The notes under the pieces are model-generated. The model made no database searches and was not told where the DNA came from. It worked only from the letters and a program-made list of their open reading frames with translations. Position numbers and translations under genes: made by a program. Of a stretch of 64,000 nt of DNA, positions 7,146 through 43,892 are shown in pieces. The DNA lies in assembly GCF_030845195.1 (NCBI RefSeq), contig NZ_CP132543.1:2559501-2623500 (forward strand), in the 5' to 3' direction. The DNA is from Sanyastnella coralliicola (GTDB taxonomy: Bacteria > Bacteroidota > Bacteroidia > Flavobacteriales_D > Sanyastnellaceae). Each line of letters opens with the position of its first letter. Position 1 is the stretch's first letter.

Positions 7146-8435
7146 TTATTCAATCACTACACGCGTCACCTGAGTTCTTGATTGAATGAGGTAAACTCCA
7201 CTTGCCAAATCTGATAGATCCAATTGTTGAATTGGGCTCATCGTTTGCACCTGTTGAATCACTTTACCACTAGCGTGGAAAATGGAAATCTGTGTTCCGA
7301 TTGGAGATTCAATATGCAGTACGCCAGCACTTGGATTCGGCCAAATAGCGAATTCCGCGTTAGCGAGATCAGACTCAGTAATACTCACAGCACAATCTGG
7401 AGCATCACTTGCAGCTCCGCCTAAGACGCCTGCTTCAGCCCAACCATTGAACCATTCTCCTCCAGAGAAGTCTGTCCAGTTATTCAAGTTCATGTATTGA
7501 TCACCGTCTAATGTCGCATTGATGCGGTAGACCTTCACGGCTTCATTGTTGTCATTCCATGTCAATGGTTGGCCTGCTTCACAAACCTCTGGACCGATAG
7601 GACCATCACAATTCGGACGAAGGAAATACACGTAATCGTCGTACTCAGGGGCTTCACCATAGCACCAAGCAATCCCTGCATCATCGATGCAGACTGCGGC
7701 ATATTCATCACAAGCGATTCCTTTCGGGTACACACCGTAATCTTGGTACATACGCGCTAAGAATGTCGTGTGACGACCAGCGCGATCTGGATCATCATAG
7801 TGAGTATCGGTAATCGTGTTTTCCATGAACGGAGCCTCGATGAAATCGTTGAATCCAATGGTCATGTATTGATTGTATGGGTCCTCCAAGGCTTCATCGC
7901 TGTATACTGTGCCATTTTCTGCAGAGAAGTATGCATCACCCATAACAGCCATTCCTGCTGAGATTCCTCCTACAACTCCTCCGCGAACGTTGAGCAAGTT
8001 GTTGATAGCGTCTTCGATGGCTGTTCCGCGCCAGTAGGAGATGTAATCCCACTGATTACCTCCAGCCATCCAGATCGCCTCGGCATTTTGGACTTGCTCG
8101 ATAACGTATGGATCCTCAGCTGCAGAGGCGTCATTAAAAAGGATGGTCTCTACTGAGTTAATCGTTACACCAAGGTCAGAGAAAAAGTAGTCGTTGTATC
8201 CATCTGAACCGCTCGCGCGGAGAACTACGACGTCTCCACCATTGGCCTGCTCAAGGAACCATTTCATGGCCTCGTCGTTCTCTCCTGCACCGCCCATTAG
8301 TACGACACCGAAGCTTGGTTCAACATCTAAATCTGCTTCATCTCCTGTGAAGAAGCTCTCGTATGATTGTGCCTGCAGTGCTCCTGAAAGAAGCAACGCA
8401 AACATCCATGTGAAAAGTGATTTCGTATTCATCAT
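7146..8435 (-). CDS. Secreted S51 peptidase (cyanophycinase-like) with T9SS sorting domain
   Basis: Last gene of the SusC-SusD-S51-S51 operon. The 429 residues hold a signal peptide (cleavage near AQS), an S51 peptidase domain and a C-terminal T9SS type A domain (about 355-429, beginning FAIWPNPSAG). The protein is therefore predicted to cross the outer membrane. Catalytic residues by family comparison are Ser159 (GGISAGM), His212 (TDTHY) and probably Glu244. The substrate motif of true cyanophycinases (DQHFxxRxRxxR) is replaced by DTHYDDPDRAGRH, so specificity may differ. Its ATG overlaps the upstream stop as ATGA, indicating translational coupling. Copies of the iterated motif lie at 7353-7365 (encoding ANAE) and, imperfectly, at 7268-7280. 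Confidence 0.85.
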   Translation of the reverse strand: MMNTKSLFTWMFALLLSGALQAQSYESFFTGDEADLDVEPSFGVVLMGGAGENDEAMKWFLEQANGGDVVVLRASGSDGYNDYFFSDLGVTINSVETILFNDASAAEDPYVIEQVQNAEAIWMAGGNQWDYISYWRGTAIEDAINNLLNVRGGVVGGISAGMAVMGDAYFSAENGTVYSDEALEDPYNQYMTIGFNDFIEAPFMENTITDTHYDDPDRAGRHTTFLARMYQDYGVYPKGIACDEYAAVCIDDAGIAWCYGEAPEYDDYVYFLRPNCDGPIGPEVCEAGQPLTWNDNNEAVKVYRINATLDGDQYMNLNNWTDFSGGEWFNGWAEAGVLGGAASDAPDCAVSITESDLANAEFAIWPNPSAGVLHIESPIGTQISIFHASGKVIQQVQTMSPIQQLDLSDLASGVYLIQSRTQVTRVVIE

Positions 8436-9310
8436 TTTGCGGTCATCACCGTTATTTCGACTTCTGACATTTCGAGAAGTCCGTTTTCGTTAGCCGAGCT
8501 TTCTCCGGGTGAAAATAACACCACTTGTCCTGCGCCGGCCACGCTAAATCCATTATTTGATACCACTAGGGCCGTAGACTCCCCTATTCCAAACACAGGC
8601 GTATTTGGGTGATCGTGCATCGCGGTCAGTGCACGATTATATCTGCTGCGTTCAACGAAGTGTTGATCGATGATCGCATGCTGAAGAAGGCCGAGACCTT
8701 CTGAATAGATTCCATTATTCGCCTTCAAACGTCGGTAAGTGGACTCATATTCAGGCTCGAGTTGCTGATCGCCTGTGATCATGACTTCGCTCATCACCGC
8801 TGCACCAGCGCTCGTACCCGCAATGACACAGCCGTTCTTGAAAGCCTGGTGGAGGTCTTCTTTCAGTCCCCTCTTTTTCACAACTTCCATGAACCGATTT
8901 TGATCGCCTCCACAGATGTAGATCAAGGAAGCATGAGGGAGTCCGCTTTTGAGACCTTCACTCTGCTCCAATCCAAAGAAGAAGCTTTCCACCTGTGTAC
9001 ACCCAAGCTCAGTAAATTGCTTGGTTGCGTAGAATGCCGAAGTATCGGGTTCACTACTCGCAGAAGGGATAATGACAATCAAACTGTCTTTTGACGGCAT
9101 CAAGTCAATCATCTCTTGCACCAAAGACGGAGGTCGTTTTCCTCCACCAATGATAAAAAGACTCCCCTTCGCTTCCGGATCAACGAGTTGAAGGCTTTCG
9201 ATCGAAAATGCATGATCATCCTTCACTTCATCACTCATCACCGTAGGCGGTTCCGATTCCGCGCAAGCGAAAAGAAAAAAGAGCGAAAAACACACTAATA
9301 ACTGTTTCAT
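8432..9310 (-). CDS. cphB: Cyanophycinase, lipoprotein form
   Basis: Cyanophycinase cuts the storage polymer cyanophycin (poly-Asp with Arg side chains) into beta-Asp-Arg dipeptides. This 292-residue S51 peptidase keeps the full active-site pattern: GGDQ (134-137), nucleophile Ser167 in AGTSAGA, DQHF (215-218), Arg221, Arg223 and Arg226 at the spacing of the substrate-binding arginines, and Glu244 in GIGES. The N-terminus is a lipoprotein signal with lipobox LFAC and Cys16, so it is membrane anchored and probably periplasmic or surface exposed. It sits between SusD and a second S51 gene. The lipobox Cys lies inside a one-mismatch copy of the iterated motif (9257-9269). Confidence 0.88.
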   Translation of the reverse strand: MKQLLVCFSLFFLFACAESEPPTVMSDEVKDDHAFSIESLQLVDPEAKGSLFIIGGGKRPPSLVQEMIDLMPSKDSLIVIIPSASSEPDTSAFYATKQFTELGCTQVESFFFGLEQSEGLKSGLPHASLIYICGGDQNRFMEVVKKRGLKEDLHQAFKNGCVIAGTSAGAAVMSEVMITGDQQLEPEYESTYRRLKANNGIYSEGLGLLQHAIIDQHFVERSRYNRALTAMHDHPNTPVFGIGESTALVVSNNGFSVAGAGQVVLFSPGESSANENGLLEMSEVEITVMTAK

Positions 9311-9340: not shown

Positions 9341-10690
9341 TTAATCAACATCCCACCATACCGGCTCCTGCATATTTGGAATCGGACTTGGGACATTCGG
9401 GTTCAACAATCGTTCATTCTGCGGGTAGATCAAACGCAATGGAATCTCACCACTCGGGTTCGACGCACTCACTCCATTCTCATTCGGATCAAGTTGCGGA
9501 TACCCCGTTCTGCGGTAATCAACCCACGGTTCAGTTTGCGTGAAGAGGGCAATGTACTTCTGCTCAATGAGTAACTCCAAATCACTTTCAAAGTCTCCGG
9601 AAAAGCTGAATTCATTGACAAATTCATCAATCTCTTCTTGCGTCAAGGTGCCGAAGGTGTTGTCTTCAACAGATGCTCTGATGGCGTCTTGCATACTCGC
9701 TAGCGCGGAACCGGATTGGTTGTCACGAAGCAAGCACTCTGCCTCAATGAACTTCTGTTCAATGTAAGATACGATCTTCACCGGCGAGTCTGGTGACGCC
9801 AAGGCCTCTCCCACTTTACTCTCACCTCCAGTAAATGGGATGATGTCAATGAAGAAATCGAAACGCGGGTCTTGAATACCCATGATTCCGATGAACTCAA
9901 TGTCGATCACCGCATTCGGTGTAATCTCATAGTACTGGAAGATTGGGTTCGCATCGACATCCGTTCCGAGGTAACCGTATTGAAGGTCTTCGAAACTAGA
10001 ATTGAAACCGTTTTGAGCTGCCAACAAAGCCTCATTCACCTTCGCTGGATCCACATTGCTTTGATGTAACAGATAGCGCGCTTTCAAAGCATATGCAGAT
10101 TGAATCCAACGCGAAAGATTCCCTTGGTACATGATATCATCATTCGCCGGAGAGAATACGCTTTCAGAAGCCTGCAAATCTTCAATGGCTTCATCCAGTA
10201 ATTGATCAATCTGTTCGTAGACGAACGCTTGTGAGTCATAGATTGGCTGGACGTTGTTCGCGTCAAGGGCTTCACTGAAAGGGGCATCTCCCCAAATATC
10301 AGTGACGACTCCAATGTTTGCGGCCATCAAGACCTTTCCAACACCGGCATAATGTGGTGCACTTTGTTCATTGGCCTTATCGATCATAATCCGAAGGTTG
10401 ATCATTGAGCCAGCGTAAAAGTCATCCCACAAATACCCAACGAAGAGCTCGTCTGGATTGTAATTCTCGGTATTGAGTTCCTGATTATTCACCCCTTCGA
10501 GGTGCTGAGAAAAGATGTTGGTATAGCGGAACGCTCTTCCTCCCAAAGCCTCAGCCAAGTTGAATTGTGCTGAGGGTAATAGTGTCTCCAACGGCACATC
10601 ATCAGGCACGTTAGGGTTCTCATTGATCTCCTCCAACTTACACGCTGAGAAGACCATCATCACTGTGAATAGGTAGATTAAATTCTTCAT
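9341..10690 (-). CDS. susD: SusD/RagB-family surface lipoprotein
   Basis: SusD-like proteins sit on the cell surface as a lid over the SusC channel and bind the nutrient polymer or oligomer. This protein has 449 residues, a lipoprotein signal with Cys17 (VFSACKLEEINENPN), and the helical repeats typical of the SusD-like_2 type (GVVTDIWGDAPFSEAL, YALKARYLL). It follows susC after five bases and precedes two S51 peptidases. This suggests that the pair imports peptide-like products of those enzymes rather than glycans, which is inference from context. An exact copy of the iterated motif at 9698-9710 encodes SALA. Confidence 0.92.
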   Translation of the reverse strand: MKNLIYLFTVMMVFSACKLEEINENPNVPDDVPLETLLPSAQFNLAEALGGRAFRYTNIFSQHLEGVNNQELNTENYNPDELFVGYLWDDFYAGSMINLRIMIDKANEQSAPHYAGVGKVLMAANIGVVTDIWGDAPFSEALDANNVQPIYDSQAFVYEQIDQLLDEAIEDLQASESVFSPANDDIMYQGNLSRWIQSAYALKARYLLHQSNVDPAKVNEALLAAQNGFNSSFEDLQYGYLGTDVDANPIFQYYEITPNAVIDIEFIGIMGIQDPRFDFFIDIIPFTGGESKVGEALASPDSPVKIVSYIEQKFIEAECLLRDNQSGSALASMQDAIRASVEDNTFGTLTQEEIDEFVNEFSFSGDFESDLELLIEQKYIALFTQTEPWVDYRRTGYPQLDPNENGVSASNPSGEIPLRLIYPQNERLLNPNVPSPIPNMQEPVWWDVD

Positions 10691-10695
10691 GGCTT

Positions 10696-13600
10696 TTAGA
10701 ATGTAAGTGAGAGTTGAACTCCGTAACTACGTGTGTTCGGTGAATTGAAATAATCACGACCGAAGCTGTTTGCCGCTCCAGAAAGCGATGTCTCTGGGTC
10801 GATACCACTGTAGTTCGTGATCAAGAATAAGTTTCGAGTGATAATGCCAACGGAAGCACCTTTGATCTTCAGTCGTTCACTCATCTCTTGAGGCATGGTC
10901 CAAGTGATTCCTAAGTCACGAAGACGAAGCCAGTTCACTTCTTCGATTCCTTCTTCACTTACTCCCACCAAACCGTAGCGGGTGTAGTAAGACTGATCAA
11001 GAGGAACAGCGATAGCATTCGCCTCTCCAGTATTCACATTCACACCTTCGATCACCACTTCCTCACCGCGATTCTCTGTGTCTATGTGGGTTCCGTGGAA
11101 ACGCATCACGTTGGCCGTTCCATTATACATATCGCCTCCTACGCGGATGTCGAAAAGGAAGCTGAGCGACCACTGTCGCCATCCCAATGTGTTTCTCCAA
11201 CCCGCTGTGAAGTCAGGGTTAGGATCTCCAATGATCTGGCGCTCACTGTCAACAATTGGGTATCCTTCATCATTGATCAAGACGTTGCCATTGGCATCCC
11301 TTGCCCAGGCTGTGCCCATGAGAACTCCATATGGTTGTCCTGAGACCACTGTAGACTGTGTACTCGCCAAACCAAAGCTCGGAAGCGGAAGCTCATCCAA
11401 TCCATCAATGATCGACACTACTTCATTTCGTAGTCTGTTGAAGTTAATGCTCGTTTGCCAATCCAACTGATTCGCTGTTTTCGCCTCAACTACCGATGCA
11501 TTTAATAGGAGTTCTAGACCTGTATTTCGAATAGGCCCTGTTCCGTTCAACACTGCCGTTGTGTAGCCTGAACTTGAAGGAATGAAGCTAATGATGATCG
11601 GATCAGTAGTCTCGCTTCGGTACCAAGTCACATCCAGTCCGAGACGATTCTCGTAGAAGCGAAGGTCTGTTCCAAACTCAATGGTTTCCGTTGTTTCCGG
11701 ACGTAAATCTGGGTTTCCGATAACACTGTTTGGTTCATAGGCCAAGTTTCCTTGTACGGGAGCAGCCGCTTCGAAGAAATTCGAGGTGAGGTAAGGACTT
11801 GGAGCCCCATTTCCAACACTCGCATAGCTTGCTCTGAGTTTTCCGTAGCTGAACGCTTTCGAATCAATATCAAAGGCATCCGTAAAGATGAACCCAAGGT
11901 TCACCGACGGATAGAAGAAACTGTTGTTGTCAGCTGGAAGATTGGAGAGCCAATCGTTCCGGCCGGTAAGGCCTAAGAAAAGGAAACCTTTGTAACCAAC
12001 ATTCGCGTCAACATAAGCACCCACTCCACGCTGACGACTCAAGAAATCATCGGCAATCACGTTAATGATATCGACGTTTGAGATGTCGTAGAAATCGGGA
12101 ATGATGAATCCAACTCCATCAAGCTCTACGTCTGTAGTCTCGTAGTTGAAGTAGTTATGTCCTGCAGTAGCCGAGAACTCCCAATCTTCCCCAAAGTACT
12201 TTGAGTACAGGATGAAAAAGTCATTATTCAAGTTCCGCTGCACGGTGGAAGCATTGTAGATACGTCCGCCTAGGTCACGGTACTCTGCCGAGCGCGCATC
12301 CCAATATGCTTTTACTCGTTGATCGTAGAAATCTGTACTGATACGATTGACAATGCTCAGGTTCTCTGTCAGTTCAAGACGAGATTCAAAGCTAGCGATG
12401 ACACGTTCAACATCTTCCCGGTTGGCGTTCTTGTTGACACTCCAATACGGATTGTCATAAACGCTATGGTAAGTGCGCTGGGTTCCATCTGGATTCGAAT
12501 AGGCCAAAGGCTCATCTACTGGGTCTTCAAAACCGTTTGTCATATCGAAATCGGCCGGGGCACGCATCAAACCAAGCATCACCCCACTGAGGTTTGAACC
12601 GCGTTGACCGCGATCAGAACCAGAACGGATGTAGTTGATATTGGTCTGGACGAATAGCTTTTCCTTCCAGTTCGTTTTACCTGTTAATCGCAGGTTCGTT
12701 CGTTCGTAGCGCGTATTCGGAATGATACCACGTTGCTGGCTATTTCCAATGGAAACAAGGAAGCTCGAGCGCTTATTTCCTCCTTCAAAACTGAGGTAGT
12801 TATTGGCTGTGATTCCTGTTTGGAAGAAGTTCGGTGCATGCTCGAAAGATTCACCCGAGATGGCTGGTCCCCATGAGAACCGAGTGCCTTCCACGAATTC
12901 ATCGAATTCCCCTTGTCCGAACGCCAATTGCGCTTCAGGCAGCTTATTCACCTGATCAAAGATCACCGTCGATTTGAAGTTAATCTTGGTCTCTTCTCCC
13001 CCACTTTTGGTGGTGATGATCACTGCTCCATTCCCGGCTCTCACCCCGTAAAGTGCCGATGCTGGTCCACCTTTCAACACGGTGATGCTCTCGATATCAT
13101 CTGGGTTAATATCAATCGCACGGTTTGATTGGTCAGTGAAGTTCGAACCGCGGTAGCTATCATCTACCGGAACGCCATCAATGACGTATAACGGTGCATT
13201 GCTACCTGAGATTGATTTGTTACCACGAATTCGCACTGTGGTGCTGGCACCTGGTGAACCTGAAGAAGAGGTGACGCTTACCCCGGCTACTTTCGAGTTG
13301 AGTGAGTTCATCACATTGATCTCGCCAGAGCGTTGAAGTTCTTCTTCTTTTACTTCGGTCACTGCATAACCGACTTTACGCTTGTCTTTTTTAATACCAA
13401 TCGCTGTCACCACTGCCTCTTCGAGGAGGAGTTGTTCAGGAGCCAAGGCCACGTTAATCGTGTTCGATTCCGCGATAGCGACTTCTTTAGAAGCATAACC
13501 AATGAACGAGAAGACGAGCTTACCGCTCTTAAACTGCTCATCGGTCACTTCGATTTGATAGCTTCCATCCAGGTCAGTGAAGGCACCTTTGTTTTCGCCT

Positions 13601-13743
13601 TTGATCACCACCGTTACTGCTAGTAGTCCTTCATCGGTCTCACTATCAGTCACTTTACCCGAAATGGTTTGTTGCGCTAACGCGGAATACGACCCGGCCA
13701 GCAACAACGCTCCCATAAGGAAGAAAGTATGTAAGGATTTCAT
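10696..13743 (-). CDS. susC: SusC/RagA-family TonB-dependent outer-membrane receptor
   Basis: A 1015-residue TonB-dependent channel. In order it has a signal peptide (ending SALAQQ), a carboxypeptidase-regulatory-like domain (about 25-105), a plug with the SusC signatures (KKDKRKVGYAVTEV, NAPLYVIDGVPVDD, IESITVLKGGPASALYG), and a long beta-barrel ending in aromatic Phe. Energised by TonB, it should import the ligand handed over by the following SusD. It heads an operon with two cyanophycinase-type peptidases. A short leader ORF and a hairpin precede it. Exact copies of the iterated motif lie at 13468-13480 (AIAE) and 13675-13687 (SALA at the signal cleavage site). Confidence 0.95.
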   Translation of the reverse strand: MKSLHTFFLMGALLLAGSYSALAQQTISGKVTDSETDEGLLAVTVVIKGENKGAFTDLDGSYQIEVTDEQFKSGKLVFSFIGYASKEVAIAESNTINVALAPEQLLLEEAVVTAIGIKKDKRKVGYAVTEVKEEELQRSGEINVMNSLNSKVAGVSVTSSSGSPGASTTVRIRGNKSISGSNAPLYVIDGVPVDDSYRGSNFTDQSNRAIDINPDDIESITVLKGGPASALYGVRAGNGAVIITTKSGGEETKINFKSTVIFDQVNKLPEAQLAFGQGEFDEFVEGTRFSWGPAISGESFEHAPNFFQTGITANNYLSFEGGNKRSSFLVSIGNSQQRGIIPNTRYERTNLRLTGKTNWKEKLFVQTNINYIRSGSDRGQRGSNLSGVMLGLMRAPADFDMTNGFEDPVDEPLAYSNPDGTQRTYHSVYDNPYWSVNKNANREDVERVIASFESRLELTENLSIVNRISTDFYDQRVKAYWDARSAEYRDLGGRIYNASTVQRNLNNDFFILYSKYFGEDWEFSATAGHNYFNYETTDVELDGVGFIIPDFYDISNVDIINVIADDFLSRQRGVGAYVDANVGYKGFLFLGLTGRNDWLSNLPADNNSFFYPSVNLGFIFTDAFDIDSKAFSYGKLRASYASVGNGAPSPYLTSNFFEAAAPVQGNLAYEPNSVIGNPDLRPETTETIEFGTDLRFYENRLGLDVTWYRSETTDPIIISFIPSSSGYTTAVLNGTGPIRNTGLELLLNASVVEAKTANQLDWQTSINFNRLRNEVVSIIDGLDELPLPSFGLASTQSTVVSGQPYGVLMGTAWARDANGNVLINDEGYPIVDSERQIIGDPNPDFTAGWRNTLGWRQWSLSFLFDIRVGGDMYNGTANVMRFHGTHIDTENRGEEVVIEGVNVNTGEANAIAVPLDQSYYTRYGLVGVSEEGIEEVNWLRLRDLGITWTMPQEMSERLKIKGASVGIITRNLFLITNYSGIDPETSLSGAANSFGRDYFNSPNTRSYGVQLSLTF

Positions 13744-13805: not shown

Positions 13806-13874
13806 TCAGCAATCGAAGATCGGTTGGAGGCCGATCAGATGCGCAGGTTTACATGGAGTGATTGTCAACTGCAT
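13806..13874 (-). CDS. Leader ORF upstream of the susC operon (22 aa)
   Basis: A 22-codon frame with ATG at 13874 and stop TGA at 13806. The peptide begins MQLTITP and ends LQPIFDC. The stop overlaps the start of the sequence TGAGATCT. A second ORF at 40021-40092 ends in the same seven residues and the same TGAGATCT. The codons for the shared Leu, Gln, Phe, Asp and Cys and for the Pro of the upstream KP pair differ synonymously, which points to selection on the peptide. A TAATATTG -7 element lies exactly four bases before the ATG, so the mRNA should begin with this ORF. The likely role is a regulatory leader peptide for the operon 62 bases downstream; mechanism and signal are unknown. Confidence 0.65.
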   Translation of the reverse strand: MQLTITPCKPAHLIGLQPIFDC

Positions 13875-13878
13875 ACAT

Positions 13879-13909
13879 CAATATTACGAGTTCGAAGTTT
13901 AGCGCGCAA
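13879..13909 (-). promoter_or_regulatory. Promoter of the susC leader
   Basis: The minus strand has a TTG (-33 type) at 13907-13909, a 20-base spacer, and TAATATTG (-7, one mismatch to TAnnTTTG) at 13879-13886. The leader ATG follows after four bases. Confidence 0.5.
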
Positions 13910-18938: not shown

Positions 18939-20555
18939 TTATTTTCCCTTGAGCAAATTGACCGTTACGGTGGCCAATTCATTATTCGGATACCTTGAGC
19001 TGAATTGAGGGTCAGCGTGCAAGCCACTTTCTTCGGCGATCTTCAAAAACACTTCTGGTTCTACGATGTATTGGTCAGAGAATGCGTGCGTTGCATCGTA
19101 TGCCGTTGCTGGCGTTCTTCCAATGTTTTTCGCTACCGTGGAAGGGTTCACTGTGTGAAGTTCAATGACGAGTAATCCGAAACGCTCTACGTAGGGCGCC
19201 CACTTTCCGAAGTGCTCATTCAAGTTGTCTTCCACCATGTTGTTCGGAATACGACGTCCGCGATGGGCGAAGGCACCTGTGGAAGCGCTCACGCGTTCCG
19301 CGCTAGCGACAGAAGGATCACTCCAAATTCGATTGTGATCAAGGAAGGTACGCACGTTCAACAATGAGCTGAGCTCGATACCGTAATTCTCTTTGAGGTC
19401 ATTGGCGAGCAAATCAGGTCGACCAATGTCTCCCCAAACCACTTTTGCCCAGATATCAGACTTGATCAAGTTGGCTCTAGTGATCTTCAAAGCAGCCTCA
19501 TTGTAGTCAGCGCCCACCAAGAAAAGCGGATGCTCGTCTAGCATTTTACCTCTGGCTGTTCGTTGCTCAATCACTTCGAACAAGTGCTGTATGAACGCTC
19601 CATTTCCACACCCCATATCGAGGATTCCCTTAGGCTGTTCATCGATCGGACGATCAAACAACTGGATGACTACCTCATCAATCTTCTTGAAATAAGTAGA
19701 GTGCGCACCACCGCTTCCCCAAACATTCATAGCACGGTCAACGTGTTGCTCTGCTTCTCCTTCAGCTACATTTCTCAATTTCGCCGGATCTCCGAAGATC
19801 ATCTCATCTACCTTTCGAAACATTGGAATGTATGATACAGTCACGCCATAGGCAGCAGCGCGTTGAGCAAAGAACAATCCCTTGTCAGTGAACTGGAAGG
19901 TCTCATTCTTTTCCGTGAACCAACCAAGGTGTCCGAAGAACGAAAGGAGCTTGTAAAAACTCTCTGGGTGTTCGTGGTATTCATCGGCACGGAATGACGC
20001 CTCCATGAAATACTTGTGGAACATCCCTCCCATCCCCATATGAACGATGGTTGGTCCAATCAAAGCTCCTTCAATATGCTTGAGCACTTGCTCTTGAATC
20101 GTTCGCTCTTCCGCGTTAGCGCTAAATTCAATACCATAATGATCGCGGTAACGATTGCAAATTCGCTCCATTACCGCAAATGCCTCAGGAGAGAATTTCC
20201 GATGGTGGTAATTCTCTGAAATCTTCATCAAATGCACCACATCTTCGTACAAATGAAAGTGTGCGAAAGCGACTTTCGAATGAGCGTTTACATGGTATTT
20301 GATTTGATCGCTGGCATTGTCAATCTCTTGTTCCATCCAGCCTTGCGAACACAAAATGCGCAAAGCGGCATTGATGTATCCCTCGTTGGCGTTGAATTCT
20401 TCAACCACCTCCGATAAAGAAACTGTGCCTCTTTGAAGAAGGTATTGATCAACTCCTTTTTGATGTAGCGCATAGGCTACTGGTGCCGTCGCGATGCCGT
20501 CGAGATGACGAAAAATCTCGCCACGATAAGTCGACTTCTGAGCTTTAGTTAGCAT
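18939..20555 (-). CDS. Large SAM-dependent methyltransferase
   Basis: A 538-residue class I methyltransferase. The N-terminal third resembles the winged-helix dimerisation domain of O- or C-methyltransferases (ATAPVAYALHQKG, GYINAALRILCSQGWM). The SAM-binding motif is GILDMGCGNGAFIQHLF. The overall plan recalls methyltransferases of polyketide or secondary metabolism, but no biosynthetic genes lie nearby, so the substrate is unknown. The frame extends to a TTG at 20591; the ATG at 20555 (MLTKAQKS) is preferred. Two exact copies of the iterated motif occur, at 19296-19308 (ASAE) and 20109-20121 (ANAE). Confidence 0.78.
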   Translation of the reverse strand: MLTKAQKSTYRGEIFRHLDGIATAPVAYALHQKGVDQYLLQRGTVSLSEVVEEFNANEGYINAALRILCSQGWMEQEIDNASDQIKYHVNAHSKVAFAHFHLYEDVVHLMKISENYHHRKFSPEAFAVMERICNRYRDHYGIEFSANAEERTIQEQVLKHIEGALIGPTIVHMGMGGMFHKYFMEASFRADEYHEHPESFYKLLSFFGHLGWFTEKNETFQFTDKGLFFAQRAAAYGVTVSYIPMFRKVDEMIFGDPAKLRNVAEGEAEQHVDRAMNVWGSGGAHSTYFKKIDEVVIQLFDRPIDEQPKGILDMGCGNGAFIQHLFEVIEQRTARGKMLDEHPLFLVGADYNEAALKITRANLIKSDIWAKVVWGDIGRPDLLANDLKENYGIELSSLLNVRTFLDHNRIWSDPSVASAERVSASTGAFAHRGRRIPNNMVEDNLNEHFGKWAPYVERFGLLVIELHTVNPSTVAKNIGRTPATAYDATHAFSDQYIVEPEVFLKIAEESGLHADPQFSSRYPNNELATVTVNLLKGK

Positions 20556-20641
20556 AGGGTGTTTGTTCAGTCTCTGGAAAAATACGTACAATTTTGATGG
20601 AAGGTTCCGCGAAGACCAATCGAATAACGATCTTCGAATCG

Positions 20642-37569: not shown

Positions 37570-38133
37570 ATGAAGTTGGAGCAAGCCTTAGACTTACTTG
37601 ACCTCGAACGTAAACCAGAGGATCCAGACATCATCGAAGAATTGATCGAAGAAGCGGTCTTTCCCTTGCGCGAGTATTTCCTTCGAAATCCCGTCGTTCC
37701 AGTGCTCTACAGATCACGACTGGCGCGCATTAAACAGCTTCAAGCTGCAGGTGAAAGTTTGGGTTTATCTACCTCTAAATCAACTCCGCTTACTACCTCC
37801 AAAGACTTTTCCGAATCAGATTTAGCCGAGTTGCTGCGAGCCTTTGAAGCGGCCTTGAGTCAAGCTCGTCTTCAAGTAGCACAGCATTTGAATCCAAGTG
37901 CGCTCGTGGCTTCAGTTGAACAAATGATTGCCATTCAAGAGTCTTTTGAGCATGCTTTTCTTCGTGTAACGGCTCATTTCGCTAGCGCGGAATCGAATAT
38001 CCTTGCCGCCGATGTGGTAGACACAGGGAAGCTGTTGATGCTTCTTCAACACGAAGATCCGTCAAGCACCGAATTGATTGAAAAGGAGCGGAAGAGAATT
38101 GAAATCATTCATGAGCGACTGCGTCGTCAGTAA
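37570..38133 (+). CDS. Helical cytoplasmic protein, unknown
   Basis: A 187-residue protein with no signal peptide and no recognised domain. It is predicted to be almost all helix, rich in Leu, Glu and Ala (MKLEQALDLLDLERKPEDPD; SDLAELLRAFEAALSQARLQ), with a charged C-terminal coil (EKERKRIEIIHERLRRQ). The 3' end overlaps the converging isoaspartyl peptidase gene by 29 bases. An exact copy of the iterated motif at 37980-37992 encodes ASAE between two helices. Confidence 0.65.
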   Translation: MKLEQALDLLDLERKPEDPDIIEELIEEAVFPLREYFLRNPVVPVLYRSRLARIKQLQAAGESLGLSTSKSTPLTTSKDFSESDLAELLRAFEAALSQARLQVAQHLNPSALVASVEQMIAIQESFEHAFLRVTAHFASAESNILAADVVDTGKLLMLLQHEDPSSTELIEKERKRIEIIHERLRRQ

Positions 38134-39052
38134 AGATCGCTGTTGTCAATGGATTCCCTTCTTTGACCCAAGCACGGTACATTCCCTCGGAGTTGAACGG
38201 ACAAGCAATGTTTCCATCTTTATCGATGCTGATCACTCCTCCGTCGCCACCAATATCGCCTACTTCATGATTGATGACTTTGGAGCCGGCATCAGCCAAG
38301 CTCAGACCACCATACTCTATCATTGACGCAATGCGTGAAGCGACGGCTGAACGAATAAAGAACTCGCCATACCCTGTAGCGCTGACAGCACAATTGCGGT
38401 TGTCTGCCCAAGTTCCCGAACCAATGAGTGCTGAATCACCGATGCGACCATAGCGTTTGTTGGTCATGCCCCCGGTAGAGGTCGCTGCTGCCAAGGTCCC
38501 GTTCTTGTCAATAGCGACGGCACCAACCGTTCCATATTTCTCACGGTTGTCAGTGTGATCAAGTTGGACACGATTGTTCTTTTTCGCTTCTTCCAGTTGC
38601 TCCTTGCGAAGGGTGGTCGTGAAGTGAGAGTTTGAGACAAAAGGCACACCTTGTTCCTTAGCAAATTGCTCTGCCCCTTCTCCATTGAGCATGACAAATT
38701 CAGAGTCCATAACCATTCTGCACAAGGAGATCGGACTTTCAATGCGACGAACTGCGCACACGGCAGCGGCTTTTCGCTCTTTGCCCTCCATCAAGGAAGC
38801 ATCCAATTCATGTACTCCCTCATGCGTCATGACCGCGCCTACTCCAGCATTGAAGAGTGGCTCTTGCTCCAGCACTTTCACTGTTGCAATAACTGCATCT
38901 AAGGCGTCGCCGTTGTTCTTCAACACTTCTTCCCCTGCTGACAGCGCGCGAAGGAGCGCACTTCTATACATGCGCTCCTTCTCAGCTGTCATTTCATCTT
39001 TCACCAATGTTCCTGCACCACCGTGCAAGACCAATCCATATTGTTTTGCCAT
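38105..39052 (-). CDS. iaaA: Isoaspartyl peptidase / L-asparaginase (Ntn hydrolase)
   Basis: Cleaves beta-aspartyl dipeptides, including in principle the beta-Asp-Arg released from cyanophycin, and often asparagine. The 315-residue precursor should self-cleave before Thr175 (EKYGTVGAVAID) to give alpha and beta chains. The family motifs LHGGAGT (9-15), FNAGVGAVMT and SATGYGE are present. No signal peptide, so cytoplasmic. Its ATG overlaps the stop of the upstream T9SS gene as TAATG, so translation is coupled. That operon shares a leader ORF type with the susC-cyanophycinase operon, which supports a role in cyanophycin or isopeptide breakdown. The 3' end overlaps the converging gene by 29 bases. 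Confidence 0.93.
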   Translation of the reverse strand: MAKQYGLVLHGGAGTLVKDEMTAEKERMYRSALLRALSAGEEVLKNNGDALDAVIATVKVLEQEPLFNAGVGAVMTHEGVHELDASLMEGKERKAAAVCAVRRIESPISLCRMVMDSEFVMLNGEGAEQFAKEQGVPFVSNSHFTTTLRKEQLEEAKKNNRVQLDHTDNREKYGTVGAVAIDKNGTLAAATSTGGMTNKRYGRIGDSALIGSGTWADNRNCAVSATGYGEFFIRSAVASRIASMIEYGGLSLADAGSKVINHEVGDIGGDGGVISIDKDGNIACPFNSEGMYRAWVKEGNPLTTAIFTDDAVAHE

Positions 39053-39942
39053 TAGCGGATGCTTACCTGCGTAGTTGAAGAGCTTCCATTTGCAGTGACA
39101 TTCAAAATGTAGTTGCCTGTCGCTAGCGCGGAAACGTTAATGCTAATCTGCGCTCCCGGAGCTAGATCTCCCTCCGAGGATTGGAGCACAACTTTACCTT
39201 TAAGATCAACAATTGACCACGTGAGGTCATTCGCCGCTTGGTCAAATTGTACGCGGAGTTCGTTGTCTGCCGGTAGCGGCCAGCAACGAATTTCAACATC
39301 TGGGATCTCTTGAACGGCAACAGCGCCTTCGCTCACGACGATGTTATCAATGGCCAATTCATTTCCTCCGTTCCCCGGTCCTGTTGGAAGGTCTGGGTTA
39401 TACGGCTGCGTGAAGTTTCTGAACGCGATGTATACCGTTTCATTCGCAAAGTCAGCCAACGACATTTGGTGGAAGGTTTCCTCAATCTCTTCACCTTCAT
39501 TACCCGTATCAAAGATGGGCGCCGCCAAGAAGAAATTTTCAATGGCTTGTCCGTCTGCTACCACAAACACCTGGTACTGATCACGGAAGTCACCAGAAGA
39601 GGTAATAGCCATACCCGTCCATGACAAATATGGATCAGAACCCAACTGAACTCCAGGAAGAATCATCCAATCATCCGACGGACCTTCATCACCTTCGTAC
39701 CATGATACAGAGAACGCAGCGTCAGAACCAGAACCACCACCGAATCCTTGCGCAGAGATATTGCGGACAGTCCATGCAGAATCTGCCATCGTCGCCAAGT
39801 CTGGATCATCAGGAGTTAATTCATCAAGGTTTACAAGAACCACTTCGGCAGGCATGCCGTTATCAAAGTATTCTTCAAAAATGATTTGAGCTGAGGCACC
39901 CACAGATAATAGCACCCCAAAAAGAGTATATACTAGTTTCAT
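39052..39942 (-). CDS. T9SS-sorted secreted protein with cleaved-adhesin/choice-of-anchor domain
   Basis: A 296-residue exported protein. After the signal peptide (cleavage near ASAQ) comes a jelly-roll domain of the cleaved adhesin or choice-of-anchor J type: IIFEEYFDNGMPAEV, then DDWMILPGVQLG, YLSWTGMA and VYIAFRN. A T9SS domain (CWPLPADNELRV to the end) follows. Such domains bind carbohydrate or anchor to the surface. It is the first gene of the operon with iaaA, coupled by TAATG. A 23-codon leader ORF lies 78 bases upstream. An exact copy of the iterated motif at 39121-39133 encodes SALA in the T9SS domain. Confidence 0.88.
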   Translation of the reverse strand: MKLVYTLFGVLLSVGASAQIIFEEYFDNGMPAEVVLVNLDELTPDDPDLATMADSAWTVRNISAQGFGGGSGSDAAFSVSWYEGDEGPSDDWMILPGVQLGSDPYLSWTGMAITSSGDFRDQYQVFVVADGQAIENFFLAAPIFDTGNEGEEIEETFHQMSLADFANETVYIAFRNFTQPYNPDLPTGPGNGGNELAIDNIVVSEGAVAVQEIPDVEIRCWPLPADNELRVQFDQAANDLTWSIVDLKGKVVLQSSEGDLAPGAQISINVSALATGNYILNVTANGSSSTTQVSIR

Positions 39943-40020
39943 ACAACAAGTTGTTTAGTTCGAATAAAAAGGAATAGAAGCCGCCAGAAAACAGCGGAGT
40001 ACAGAATCTCGATTGAGATC

Positions 40021-40092
40021 TCAACAGTCAAAGATCGGCTGCAAATTGCGCAGCGCAACCGGTTTACGGAATGTGACTTTGAAGTAGTACAT
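40021..40092 (-). CDS. Leader ORF upstream of the T9SS-iaaA operon (23 aa)
   Basis: ATG at 40092, stop at 40021. The peptide starts MYYFKVTFRKP and ends LQPIFDC, then TGAGATCT, exactly as in the ORF upstream of susC. Over the last 18 residues the two peptides share 11, and the shared block uses different synonymous codons. The -7 element TACATTTG ends three bases before the ATG, so the transcript starts with this ORF. Between its stop and the next gene is a C-rich/G-rich inverted stretch (CCGC and GCGG near 39981-39997) followed on the minus strand by a T-rich run, a possible attenuator. The role is inferred to be regulatory. Confidence 0.65.
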   Translation of the reverse strand: MYYFKVTFRKPVALRNLQPIFDC

Positions 40093-40095
40093 ACT

Positions 40096-40103
40096 CAAAT
40101 GTA
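40096..40103 (-). promoter_or_regulatory. -7 element of the T9SS-iaaA leader
   Basis: The minus strand reads TACATTTG, three bases from the leader ORF start codon. Confidence 0.55.
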
Positions 40104-40114
40104 GGGAAAATAAA

Positions 40115-40245
40115 GGACGGAACGTCGTAAGCCGTAGGCGGTAGGCAGTAAGCAGTGAGCGGAAACCGAACGGACGCCGGATGCCGGACGCCGGAGTATT
40201 AACAGCCGCCTTAAGCCTTAGGCCATAGGCCTTAAGCCACAAGCA
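40115..40245. repeat. Heptad repeat locus I
   Basis: Consecutive 7-base units: GTAAGCC, GTAGGCG, GTAGGCA, GTAAGCA, GTGAGCG (near 40128-40162), then GACGCCG-type units, then TTAAGCC/TTAGGCC/ATAGGCC units to 40240. Three unit families are joined in one array. Confidence 0.8.
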
Positions 40246-40390: not shown

Positions 40391-40439
40391 TTATTTTTCA
40401 AAGGAGGATTGCGGAACGCGGTGGGCTGTAGGCGGTATG

Positions 40440-40514
40440 CGAAAAAAAACGGATGCCGGACGCCGGACGCCGGATATGGACGCCGGATATGGACGCCGGA
40501 TATGAACGCCGGAC
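40440..40514. repeat. Repeat locus J (GACGCCG heptads and a 13-base unit)
   Basis: GACGCCG heptads (40453-40472) pass into three copies of a 13-base unit, CCGGATATGGACG, which is close to two heptads minus one base. The array touches the stop codon of the next gene. Confidence 0.75.
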
Positions 40515-40942
40515 TATATCCTCACAAAACACTTCTTAAAGAACAACTCCCATGCTCCTGCTTTGGCTTCATCGCAAGCGATTTGGATTTGTTTTCCTGA
40601 AGCTAGATTTAGCGTAAACACACAAGGATGGCTGGTGCGGTTTTGAAGCTCTCTTCTCATGGAGAGAACCTCGTGGTCACCTAGCGGGATACCATATACT
40701 TCAAGGCGTATTTTGAAATAGAGGATAGCGCCTTGTTGCGTACGTTGGAGGTTGCAGTATTTGACGTTGCTGGTTTCTCCTAACATCTCAGACGCTTCTC
40801 CCGGAACATCAATTAAGACACCTCGTGGTGAGCCTGTTCCTCCTTGAGCGATGCCTTTGAAGAACGGGACTGGTCTTCCGGTGATCGCGTAGACTTCGTC
40901 CCAGCGATCAGGGTCATTATAGGTTAAGTTCCAGTACCTCAT
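40514..40942 (-). CDS. Unknown protein downstream of cryptochrome DASH
   Basis: A 142-residue protein starting MRYWNLTYNDPDRWDEVYA; the ATG at 40942 overlaps the cryptochrome gene by 26 bases, suggesting co-translation. No family is recognised. It has a mixed alpha/beta look with strands near the C-terminus (GAILYFKIRLEVYGIPLG, HPCVFTLNLASGKQIQIAC) and no signal peptide. The overlap with a photolyase-family gene suggests a role tied to light response or flavin chemistry, which is inference from position only. Confidence 0.55.
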   Translation of the reverse strand: MRYWNLTYNDPDRWDEVYAITGRPVPFFKGIAQGGTGSPRGVLIDVPGEASEMLGETSNVKYCNLQRTQQGAILYFKIRLEVYGIPLGDHEVLSMRRELQNRTSHPCVFTLNLASGKQIQIACDEAKAGAWELFFKKCFVRI

Positions 40943-42212
40943 TGCTCCAGCGTGATCTGTATTTCCCGTTTGTATCGTAGCGGTCTGCTTGTAGTTGGGT
41001 GTTGAACTTTCTGTTCGGACGAGGGTCATTGCCTACACCAGCAACGTAGATCCAATTTCCGTAGTTGCTACATGGGTCATAGTCGATGAGGAAGTGCTCG
41101 AAAAGACTTGCTCCAAGTCGCCAGTCTACACCCAAGTCATGAACCAGGTAACTAGCTACGTTTTGTCGGCCTCGGTTGCTCATGAAACCGGTTTTCGCTA
41201 GTTCTCTCATGTTCGCATTGACGAATTCATCTTGTGTTCTTCCTTCTGCCCATTGAGCCAATAATCTTTTGTCTTTGCGCCATTTTGGAGCTCGTCCTTT
41301 GATGCCTGCCTTCCAGAAAATGCGGTCGTCGTATTTCATCGCAACGAAGCGGAAGTAGTCTCTCCAGATCAGCTCGAAAATCAACCAATAAGTGCTTTCA
41401 TTACTTTCATACTGAGCCTCATACTTCTTGATCTCCCAGTAGATTTCACGAGGTGAGATACAACCATTCGCGAGCCACGGAGAAAACTTACTACTGTAAT
41501 CGGCGCCGATGAGTCCGTTGCGCGTTTTCTTGTAAACACTGAGTTTCTTCGTCTTCCAGAAGTAGTGATCCATGCGCGCTTTGGCCTCAGAAGCACCTCC
41601 CTTAAACTCTAATACCGCTCTCGGATCAAGTGATGGATCGGTTTGCCCGAAATCAGCCATGGTAGGCAACTCACAAGCATCCAGTCCTGAAGTATTCCAA
41701 GTCGTTGGAGCTGCTTTTAGCTCTCTCACCTTCGCATACTTCTCTACCTTCTTGCGAAATTGAGTAAAGATGTCTGGTAGGTCTTGAATGTCCATCGGGA
41801 TGTCTTCAGGATGGTAAAGGGTGAACCCCTCTTCCAAATGAAGCGTGAGCGATTCGGCGATAGCCTGTTCTAACTCAAATTCTTCTTGCGTATGCTCTTG
41901 CTGCCCGTAAACCGTTTTAGTCTGATGCTTTGAAGACAAATCTTTCAGCACCTTGACCGTGTCACCTTTGAACAGCTGCAACTCCACTCCCAATTTCCGG
42001 AGTTCTGTTTGAAGGTCTGCCACGCTCTCTAACAAGAACTTCGTGCGGAATGGTCCGGTCTTCACCAGTCCCCAGTTATCTTGATCCCACCACCAGTCAT
42101 CAAAGACGAATACCGGAATCACCTCCTCTGCCTCTCTCAATGCTCGATCCAATCCTGGGTTGTCATTCAGTCTTAGATCATTCCTAAACCAATAGATCGC
42201 TTTCTTAGCCAC
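40917..42212 (-). CDS. Cryptochrome DASH / photolyase family
   Basis: A 431-residue flavoprotein. The N-terminal Rossmann domain begins KKAIYWFRNDLRLNDNPGLD. The FAD-binding helical domain has the DASH-type sequence SSKFSPWLANGCISPREIYWE and, near the C-terminus, GVGNDPRPNRKFNTQLQADRYD. DASH proteins repair cyclobutane dimers in single-stranded DNA or act in blue-light sensing. It is one of three photolyase-family genes within 6 kb. The 3' end overlaps the next gene by 26 bases. Confidence 0.92.
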   Translation of the reverse strand: MAKKAIYWFRNDLRLNDNPGLDRALREAEEVIPVFVFDDWWWDQDNWGLVKTGPFRTKFLLESVADLQTELRKLGVELQLFKGDTVKVLKDLSSKHQTKTVYGQQEHTQEEFELEQAIAESLTLHLEEGFTLYHPEDIPMDIQDLPDIFTQFRKKVEKYAKVRELKAAPTTWNTSGLDACELPTMADFGQTDPSLDPRAVLEFKGGASEAKARMDHYFWKTKKLSVYKKTRNGLIGADYSSKFSPWLANGCISPREIYWEIKKYEAQYESNESTYWLIFELIWRDYFRFVAMKYDDRIFWKAGIKGRAPKWRKDKRLLAQWAEGRTQDEFVNANMRELAKTGFMSNRGRQNVASYLVHDLGVDWRLGASLFEHFLIDYDPCSNYGNWIYVAGVGNDPRPNRKFNTQLQADRYDTNGKYRSRWSNEVLELNL

Positions 42213-42284
42213 GGTTGCTGATTTGTGATTGGAACAGATGAAGTGGTTTTGTGTTCGAATTCCTTTCTTTTGGAGGGCTTAAGG

Positions 42285-42355
42285 GCGAAATGGCGAAATG
42301 GCGAATTAATCGAAAAACGATAATCGATAATCGATAACCGATAACCGATAACTGG
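42285..42355. repeat. Heptad repeat locus K (CGATAAT array)
   Basis: Two copies of GGCGAAAT (8 bases, an exception) followed by five regular heptads at 42318-42352: CGATAAT twice and CGATAAC three times. Confidence 0.8.
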
Positions 42356-42359
42356 TGAT

Positions 42360-43892
42360 TTACAGTGCTTCGATGTTGTTGAGGTAATCGTTGGCTTGGG
42401 AGAGAAGAGCGGCTTTATTCTCTGGCGCCATTTTATCCCAGGTGCGGTACATCATGCCGATGCGTGGGTTTCTGCCGAGCTTGTCGCGGTGGCGGTCGTA
42501 GAAGTTCCAGTAGAGGCTGTTGAATGGGCAGGCGCCTTCTCCGGATTTCTTTTTGTGGTCGTAGACGCAATTGTCGCAGTAGCTTGACATCTTCTTCATG
42601 TAGTTGGCTGAAGAGACGTAAGGCTTGGTGCCTACGATGCCACCATCTGCGAATTGGCTCATGCCTCGGGTGTTGGTGATTTCAACCCATTCGATCGCAT
42701 CGATATAGATTCCTAGGTACCATTGGTCTACTTCGTCTGGGTCAATTCCTGCGAGCAAGGCGAAGTTACCAGTGACCATCAAACGTTGGATATGATGGGC
42801 ATAGCTATATTCCAATGATTGCTTAATGGCATGACGAAGGCAGGCCATTTTCGTATTCCCGTCCCAGAACCAAGAGGGAAGCTTACGAGCGTGCTCAAAG
42901 AAGTTCAACGAAGCAAACTCGGGCATTTTCGCCCAGTAAATTCCGCGCATGTATTCTCTCCAACCTAGGATCTGACGAATGAAGCCTTCTACCTGCGCAA
43001 TAGAAGCGTGATAGGGATCTGCCTTCCATCGTTCTTCTACCGCTCGGATGACGGTCATCGGGTGAATGATCTTTGAATTGATTAGGAACGATAACCGAGA
43101 ATGATACAAGGACCAGTACTCGGGCGTCATGGCGTCTTGGAAATCTCCGAAATGAGGCATGCATTCATCTACGAAAAACGTGAGAAGCTCATTTCCTTCT
43201 TCTTCAGTTACTGGCCATAGGAAGCGCTTTTCATCAAGCGTACCAATCGTCTTCACTCCTGACTTGGTCAGCATTTCAACCACCGAAGTGACGTCTCGCT
43301 CAAACAGTTTCGGCTCGGGTGGACGATGACCTTTCGGCAGCTTTTTGCGGTTATTGGCGTCGTAGTTCCATTGTCCGGTGACTGGTTGATCGCCTTCCAT
43401 GAGCACTTGATGTTTCTTCCGCATCATACGATAGAAACTCTCCATCAGGTAGGTCTTCTTGCCTTGGAAGAACTCGCGTAACTCGAATCGAGATGTCAGA
43501 AAGTGTTCGGAGTCTACGTGCTCAACAACACCGTCGAACTGGTTATCCAACTCATCGAGTTGTTGATCAAGACGGTATTCATCTGGCCACTGATACTCTA
43601 TCCTAGAGGCTCCTACCGATTCCGCGCTAGCGAGAAGATTCTGATTCAAATTTTGCGTATTCCGCGCATCATCCAACTTCAGATAAATCACTTGATGCCC
43701 GGCAGCCTCAAGCTTCGCAGCAAATTCGCGCATCGCGAGAAAAAAGGCCACGACCTTTTGAATGTGATGCGGCGCGTAATCTGTTTCTTGGCGCATCTCA
43801 GCCATGAAATAATAAACGTGATCGTCAACACTATTGTACCAACTGTGCTGCAAATTGAGCTGATCACCAAGGATCAAACGGAGGGTCTTCAT
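42360..43892 (-). CDS. Iron-sulfur photolyase (bacterial (6-4)-type, PhrB-like)
   Basis: A 510-residue cryptochrome/photolyase-related protein that begins [19 protein letters not shown], typical of the FeS-BCP group. The iron-sulfur ligands are Cys in KMACLRHAI and the trio YCDNC...GEGACPFN near the C-terminus. Group members repair (6-4) photoproducts using light, FAD and a lumazine antenna. Its ATG overlaps the stop of the DUF2256 gene as ATGA. That pairing is frequent in marine bacteria. An exact copy of the iterated motif at 43620-43632 encodes ASAE. Confidence 0.92.

Follow-up and report, generated by a model that had tools for sequence, protein, structure and literature searches.

Two operons of Sanyastnella coralliicola, located in a 64,000-nt stretch of contig NZ_CP132543.1 (hereafter the window, to which all plain coordinates refer; labels beginning with L or G denote loci or genomes of the comparison sets), are each preceded by a short open reading frame (ORF) that ends in the peptide LQPIFDC, directly followed by TGA. 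One operon encodes a protein with a sorting tail of the type IX secretion system (T9SS) and the isoaspartyl peptidase IaaA; the other encodes a SusC/SusD pair, a cyanophycinase of family S51 and a second S51 protein. The distribution of such leaders across genomes provides good support for the view that they mark a regulon of scattered cyanophycin clusters, and we consider it probable that the two window operons form one dispersed cyanophycin-scavenging regulon, for which a conserved translated leader peptide serves as the mark and most likely as the means of control. By analogy, the leader type most likely represents an attenuator of the TnaC/SpeFL kind, in which termination arrest would sense a cyanophycin product. 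The components of the two operons are:

40096-40103, minus strand: predicted -7 promoter box TACATTTG, 3 nt 5' of the leader A ATG
40021-40092, minus strand: leader ORF A, 23 codons, MYYFKVTFRKPVALRNLQPIFDC, C-terminus LRNLQPIFDC followed by TGA
39943-40020, minus strand: 78-nt region between leader A and the first gene, containing a hairpin (39981-39997)
39052-39942, minus strand: T9SS cargo gene with a choice-of-anchor J/cleaved-adhesin-like domain and a type A sorting tail
38105-39052, minus strand: iaaA, isoaspartyl peptidase of the Asparaginase_2 family
13879-13886, minus strand: predicted -7 box TAATATTG, matching 5 of 6 consensus positions, 4 nt 5' of the leader B ATG
13806-13874, minus strand: leader ORF B, 22 codons, MQLTITPCKPAHLIGLQPIFDC, C-terminus LIGLQPIFDC followed by TGA
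10696-13743, minus strand: SusC/RagA TonB-dependent transporter
9341-10690, minus strand: SusD-like lipoprotein (SusD-like_2)
8432-9310, minus strand: cyanophycinase (S51) with GTSAGA and DQHF retained
7146-8435, minus strand: S51 protein with a T9SS type A sorting tail (Por_Secre_tail)

The QPIFDC codons of leaders A and B differ at four positions, all of them third positions and all synonymous. Within the genome (4,097,636 bases, one contig), the two leaders are the sole matches to QPIFDC-stop, and a 23-mer search allowing up to three mismatches again returned only these two, with no match to the reversed control pattern in either search. The stop of leader B lies 62 nt from the susC start, and the promoter boxes predict that each mRNA starts at its leader. 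The original prediction, made from the window's letters alone, had assigned the same kind of leader ORF to both operons and had described iaaA as coupled to the T9SS protein gene by TAATG. Both statements agree with the shared LQPIFDC-TGA ending and with the overlap of the two genes at base 39052, whereas the distance of 25 kb that it gave between iaaA and the S51 genes has to be corrected to about 29 kb, the leaders being 26 kb apart.

A family-wide search (114 genomes) for PIFDC-stop yielded 10 matches in 7 genomes. The three genomes of the window's genus contain exactly two leaders each, one per operon; the other four matches (L005, L009, L010 and L011), each single in its genome, were judged from the peptide and a preview of the surroundings to be chance. 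In G047, which belongs to the same genus, the two operons lie 540 kb apart and the leader is kept at both, so that physical linkage does not explain its sharing and was rejected as the sole cause. Among 84,980 species scanned, QPIFDC-stop occurred in 51 stretches, 17 of which have L before the motif. Fifteen of these 17 are short-ORF leaders, located directly 5' of a SusC, S51, iaaA or T9SS adhesin gene in 13 genomes (Marivirga, Fulvivirga, Marinigracilibium, Mangrovivirga, Phaeodactylibacter, Galbibacter, Tamlana and several metagenome-assembled genomes, MAGs), and two (L042, L056) run antisense within other genes. Thus, 36 of the 51 stretches were not counted as leaders, namely these two and 34 without L, which were judged from the frame and a preview of the downstream ORF. 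When up to three mismatches were allowed in the leader genomes (n=14), extra copies appeared, giving two to five per genome and including leaders that end in TAG as well as the form NLQP[IV]FDC; six of the 43 matches did not encode the motif and were excluded.

All 13 leader genomes carry PF03575 (S51) and PF01112 (Asparaginase_2) genes and appear to hold the gene set of a cyanophycin utilization locus. By a scripted count, 26 of their 34 S51 genes are leader-led, as are 13 of their 31 Asparaginase_2 genes, exactly one in each genome; the paralogs serve as an internal control. Altogether, 60 leaders of the form LQP[IV]F[DN]C-stop were collected from 26 genomes, all outside long ORFs. The gene next to the leader encodes SusC in 25 cases, an S51/T9SS protein in 17, a T9SS adhesin in 10, IaaA in 6 and another protein in 2, and an S51 or IaaA gene occurs within the same-direction gene run of 55 leaders. 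Genes were called as simple ATG ORFs of at least 110 amino acids and labelled by phmmer with six window proteins (E 1e-5 or better), so that the labels are coarse. The five exceptions fall into three genomes. In G717 the leader precedes SusC, the CphB and permease genes are divergent, and the same-direction run holds no S51 or IaaA gene. G691 has one leader beside a divergent CphB-permease-IaaA group and one before SusC-SusD, and G1586 has two on a short contig, one before SusC-SusD and one before a T9SS adhesin gene at the contig end. These counts sustain the idea of the original prediction that operons sharing the leader serve one pathway: leaders recur beside iaaA and cyanophycinase genes in other genomes, and with 58 of 60 next to the four gene types named, they do not lie mostly at unrelated genes.

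Three order-wide searches gave a similar picture. In the order of Fulvivirga (291 genomes), six new matches in three new genomes all lie at SusC, S51 or CphB loci, and one of these genomes has two further LQPIFNC leaders; in the orders of Galbibacter (395 genomes) and of the Saprospiraceae MAG (396 genomes), seven of eight and four of seven new matches are linked to cyanophycin genes. Combined, 17 of 21 new matches are cyanophycin-linked, and the remaining four (G849, G1416, G1204 and G1439) lie inside long ORFs, two of them with F in place of L, and were counted as chance. The reversed control patterns matched once each in G013 (family search), G125 (search with up to three mismatches) and G1281 (order of the Saprospiraceae MAG). 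An even sample of the phylum (394 other genomes) gave no match to LQP[IV]FDC, a pattern that does not cover the FNC variant; a common feature of Bacteroidota was accordingly rejected. The reverse approach, starting from genes in the Fulvivirga order, showed that four of five cyanophycinase loci without the exact motif carry LQPIFNC-stop, in each case directly before an operon of the type S51-SusC-SusD-CphB-IaaA-YfcC. At the fifth locus, which lacks SusC and IaaA, no leader was found.

Because the last seven residues had been built into the search motif and so carry no weight on their own, conservation was judged outside it. Among the 60 leaders, K(-14) is found in 52, L(-10) in 55 and G or N(-8) in 59. 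The third codon position is far more variable than the second at both K(-14), with entropies of 0.32, 0.14 and 1.31 bits for positions 1, 2 and 3, and L(-10), with 1.12, 0.53 and 1.60 bits (52 non-redundant leaders). Within the motif every synonymous codon is represented, and all three stops are used (TAG 24, TGA 18 and TAA 14 of 56). The variation of synonymous codons, the use of all three stops and the recurrence of K and L outside the motif indicate that the peptide is selected. A DNA operator for a regulator, with the ORF being incidental, would fit a short conserved block close to promoters, but third positions that are free to vary, stops of all three kinds, and K(-14) and L(-10) kept as amino acids and not as bases make this explanation barely credible. 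No leader extends beyond the Cys, although the stop was required by the search motif; LQP[IV]F[DN]C without a stop was sought in short frames of the scanned loci and was not found. Most leaders are 21-40 amino acids long and have a variable N-terminus.

The region behind the stop also differs from other upstream regions. The 60 nt after it, taken from 52 non-redundant leaders, were compared with 218 upstream regions that belong to the same loci but lack a leader: the pyrimidine fraction is 0.607 versus 0.496 (p 8e-15), and the C-G skew 0.241 versus 0.059 (p 2e-5). This RNA is C-rich and G-poor, a composition compatible, as composition, with a rut-like site. Post-leader hairpins are more stable than shuffles by a mean z of -1.57, with 34 of 52 below -1, the corresponding values for 120 controls being -0.53 and 30%. 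The hairpin behind leader A (z -2.6) was scored in a simple scan as weakly terminator-like, with a weak T tail. An intrinsic terminator as the rule was rejected, since many post-leader hairpins elsewhere have no T run. In the window, a scan with the curated Rfam families at gathering scores gave no match, and a known RNA family was rejected on this ground. Upstream, 9 of 46 leaders have a TAnnTTTG box, the promoter consensus described in PMC9723704, at most 30 nt from their ATG (2.5% in shuffles), and a box matching at least 5 of 6 positions is found in this range in 29 of 46 (33% in shuffles). The near-leaderless start in the window would also suit an ordinary upstream ORF that, without any ligand, shields the RNA or links translation with transcription, the regulation coming from elsewhere. 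Such an ORF, however, would not require that the C-terminal peptide be the same in unrelated orders or that the stop follow the Cys immediately, and we consider this alternative unlikely.

The layout resembles TnaC, the 24-amino-acid leader of the Escherichia coli tna operon, in that a short leader precedes a catabolic operon, its C-terminal part is conserved up to the stop, and the RNA that follows is pyrimidine-rich and G-poor, in composition like a rut site. According to PMC8429421, the ribosome on tnaC stalls in the presence of tryptophan once the stop codon occupies the A site and thereby hides from Rho a rut site that lies immediately 3' of this codon; SpeFL works likewise with ornithine. 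The leaders described here differ from both in sequence, phylum and pathway, and in that one leader type stands ahead of several operons per genome. The likeness is one of sequence layout; translation of the leader, ribosome arrest, the ligand, the use of Rho and co-expression of the operons are inferred. As in trp-type attenuators, a leader ORF is followed by an RNA hairpin in many cases, but the conserved residues are C-terminal, and neither Arg nor Asp codons form a run in the aligned leader peptides; charged-tRNA attenuation is therefore disfavoured, and trp-type attenuation was rejected. Leader-peptide attenuation has been noted in F. psychrophilum (PMC9723704).

In its boldest form, to which we give a probability just short of even, this reading is that a metabolite-sensing arrest peptide of the form K-x3-L-x-[GN]-LQP[IV]F[DN]C-stop would sense arginine or beta-Asp-Arg in the ribosome and would control a scattered regulon in several orders of Bacteroidota, each operon having its own sensor copy. 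For the regulon considered probable above, the following working is proposed. Surface S51 enzymes would cleave cyanophycin to beta-Asp-Arg, SusC/SusD would import the product, and IaaA in the cytoplasm would split it. In the presence of arginine, beta-Asp-Arg or a derivative, the ribosome would be arrested when LQPIFDC, at the end of the nascent chain, fills the tunnel and the stop codon has reached the A site. By shielding the C-rich and G-poor stretch that follows this codon, the arrested ribosome would block an early, probably Rho-dependent, termination, whereupon the operon would be transcribed. A cyanophycin product (arginine, beta-Asp-Arg) would then be the natural inducer. Tandem leader pairs, 160-430 nt apart, precede a single operon at L114, L115, L160 and L161 (Flavobacteriaceae-type) and at L111, and L160 has two such pairs ahead of neighbouring genes. 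A conserved C-terminus and several copies per genome would likewise be expected if the peptide were released and acted in trans, for instance as a signal or a small regulator synthesized wherever the pathway has been switched on. We regard this as quite improbable, because a copy ahead of each operon, tandem copies ahead of one operon and the variable N-terminus fit a cis-acting element better, and no signal peptide was seen in the leader peptides.

The proteins of the window operons fit the predicted pathway to different degrees. IaaA matches Asparaginase_2 (PF01112) with 353.9 bits and E. coli EcAIII (2zak) with E 7e-87, and its residue 175, within GTVGAVA, aligns with the beta-chain starts of 1jn9 and others, in agreement with a Thr nucleophile; it remains under the PRK10226 equivalog cut-off (332.8 of 567 bits). 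No signal peptide was seen in IaaA. The cyanophycinase exceeds the TIGR02069 cut-off (145.2 versus 126.6 bits), and its best PDB match is a solved cyanophycinase (7uqv, E 2e-22) with GTSAGA and DQHF aligned. The S51 protein with the T9SS tail stays below the same cut-off (51.3 bits) and matches solved cyanophycinases weakly (E 9e-5), GISAG and DTHY being retained. The regulon may be real and yet serve a beta-aspartyl substrate other than cyanophycin, such as isoaspartyl peptides arising from protein damage, given that IaaA of cyanophycin clusters is reported to be promiscuous (PMC10206079). Cyanophycinases above the TIGR02069 cut-off in the operons and the PDB match to a cyanophycinase, together with arginine-using genes of the arginine deiminase and dimethylarginine hydrolase families in two leader operons, render this very improbable. 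At L161 (11477-13447), arginine deiminase-family and DDAH-family genes close the cyanophycin operon.

The T9SS protein of the iaaA operon (families choice-of-anchor J and Por_Secre_tail) has a weak AlphaFold model (mean pLDDT 60.6), whose top structural neighbours, the jelly rolls of MAM and gingipain cleaved-adhesin domains (Z about 13-14), would fit an adhesin. The predicted jelly-roll fold and the type A sorting tail make a surface role plausible, and a role in holding the polymer at the cell surface is likewise plausible. A T9SS adhesin gene directly follows the leader in ten loci, alongside IaaA, S51/T9SS or CphB-permease genes, and these ten leader-led copies identify it as a regular member of the regulon. 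A PKD-repeat protein of 2648 amino acids with a T9SS type B sorting tail, encoded 898 nt behind the leader of L138 (4580-12526), is a candidate for a large adhesin within the regulon. Many leader operons also contain a YfcC-like permease gene; two of the encoded proteins were checked against NF008611 (E 1e-111 and 1e-124) and both fall under its cut-off.

In known cyanophycin utilization loci, cyanophycinase, isoaspartyl dipeptidase and transporter genes occur together and cphA is not needed (PMC10206079, citing Ben Hania 2017). The same classes of genes are found here, but they are often spread over two to five leader-led units and accompanied by SusC/SusD and T9SS parts. The accessible text of PMC10206079 does not mention a leader peptide for these loci, and no report of one for cyanophycin genes was found in open-access PMC full text. 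The operons also resemble SusCD polysaccharide utilization loci, as they combine a SusC-SusD pair, surface hydrolases and an inner-membrane permease. SusCD polysaccharide utilization loci are usually regulated by sigma/anti-sigma or hybrid two-component systems; here, the polymer would be peptide-like and not a glycan, and the proposed control is exerted by a leader peptide.

Several observations weigh against a leader-controlled regulon of this kind. Eight of the 34 S51 genes in leader genomes are leaderless, including three CphB genes of Phaeodactylibacter-type genomes, and the S. coralliicola genome has a leaderless YfcC-like permease homologue elsewhere (genome positions 240315-241649). 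Hairpins do not stand behind every leader and frequently have no T run; in ten of 56 leaders, the range of 15-51 codons ahead of the stop contains no ATG. Moreover, 99 of the 291 genomes in the Fulvivirga order pass the cyanophycinase cut-off and four have the leader, so that most are without the exact motif; five of the loci without it were inspected. A leader at the own YfcC-like permease gene was also considered and rejected, as none was found.

With the leader as a sequence tag, cyanophycin scavengers could be recognized in genomes without biochemistry, along with parts that are still missing, such as the SusCD transporter, the T9SS adhesin and the permease. It also points to a regulatory leader peptide as a regulon-wide switch with its own copy in each operon, and we know of few such sensors in the phylum Bacteroidota.

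Around the iaaA unit, the 3' end of iaaA overlaps a convergent gene (37570-38133) by 29 bases (38105-38133). The intergenic region 5' of leader A contains short tandem repeats (40120-40240 and 40430-40513) with the units CGGACGC, GCCTTAA and GGACGCCGGATAT, and the sequence of the relative G048 differs in this repeat region. Further upstream, a DNA photolyase gene adjoins a deoxyribodipyrimidine photolyase-related gene (40917-43892). Elsewhere in the window, 18939-20591 encodes a protein that combines AprA N-terminal, winged-helix and MT2-like methyltransferase domains, known from natural-product enzymes, with no obvious cluster around it.

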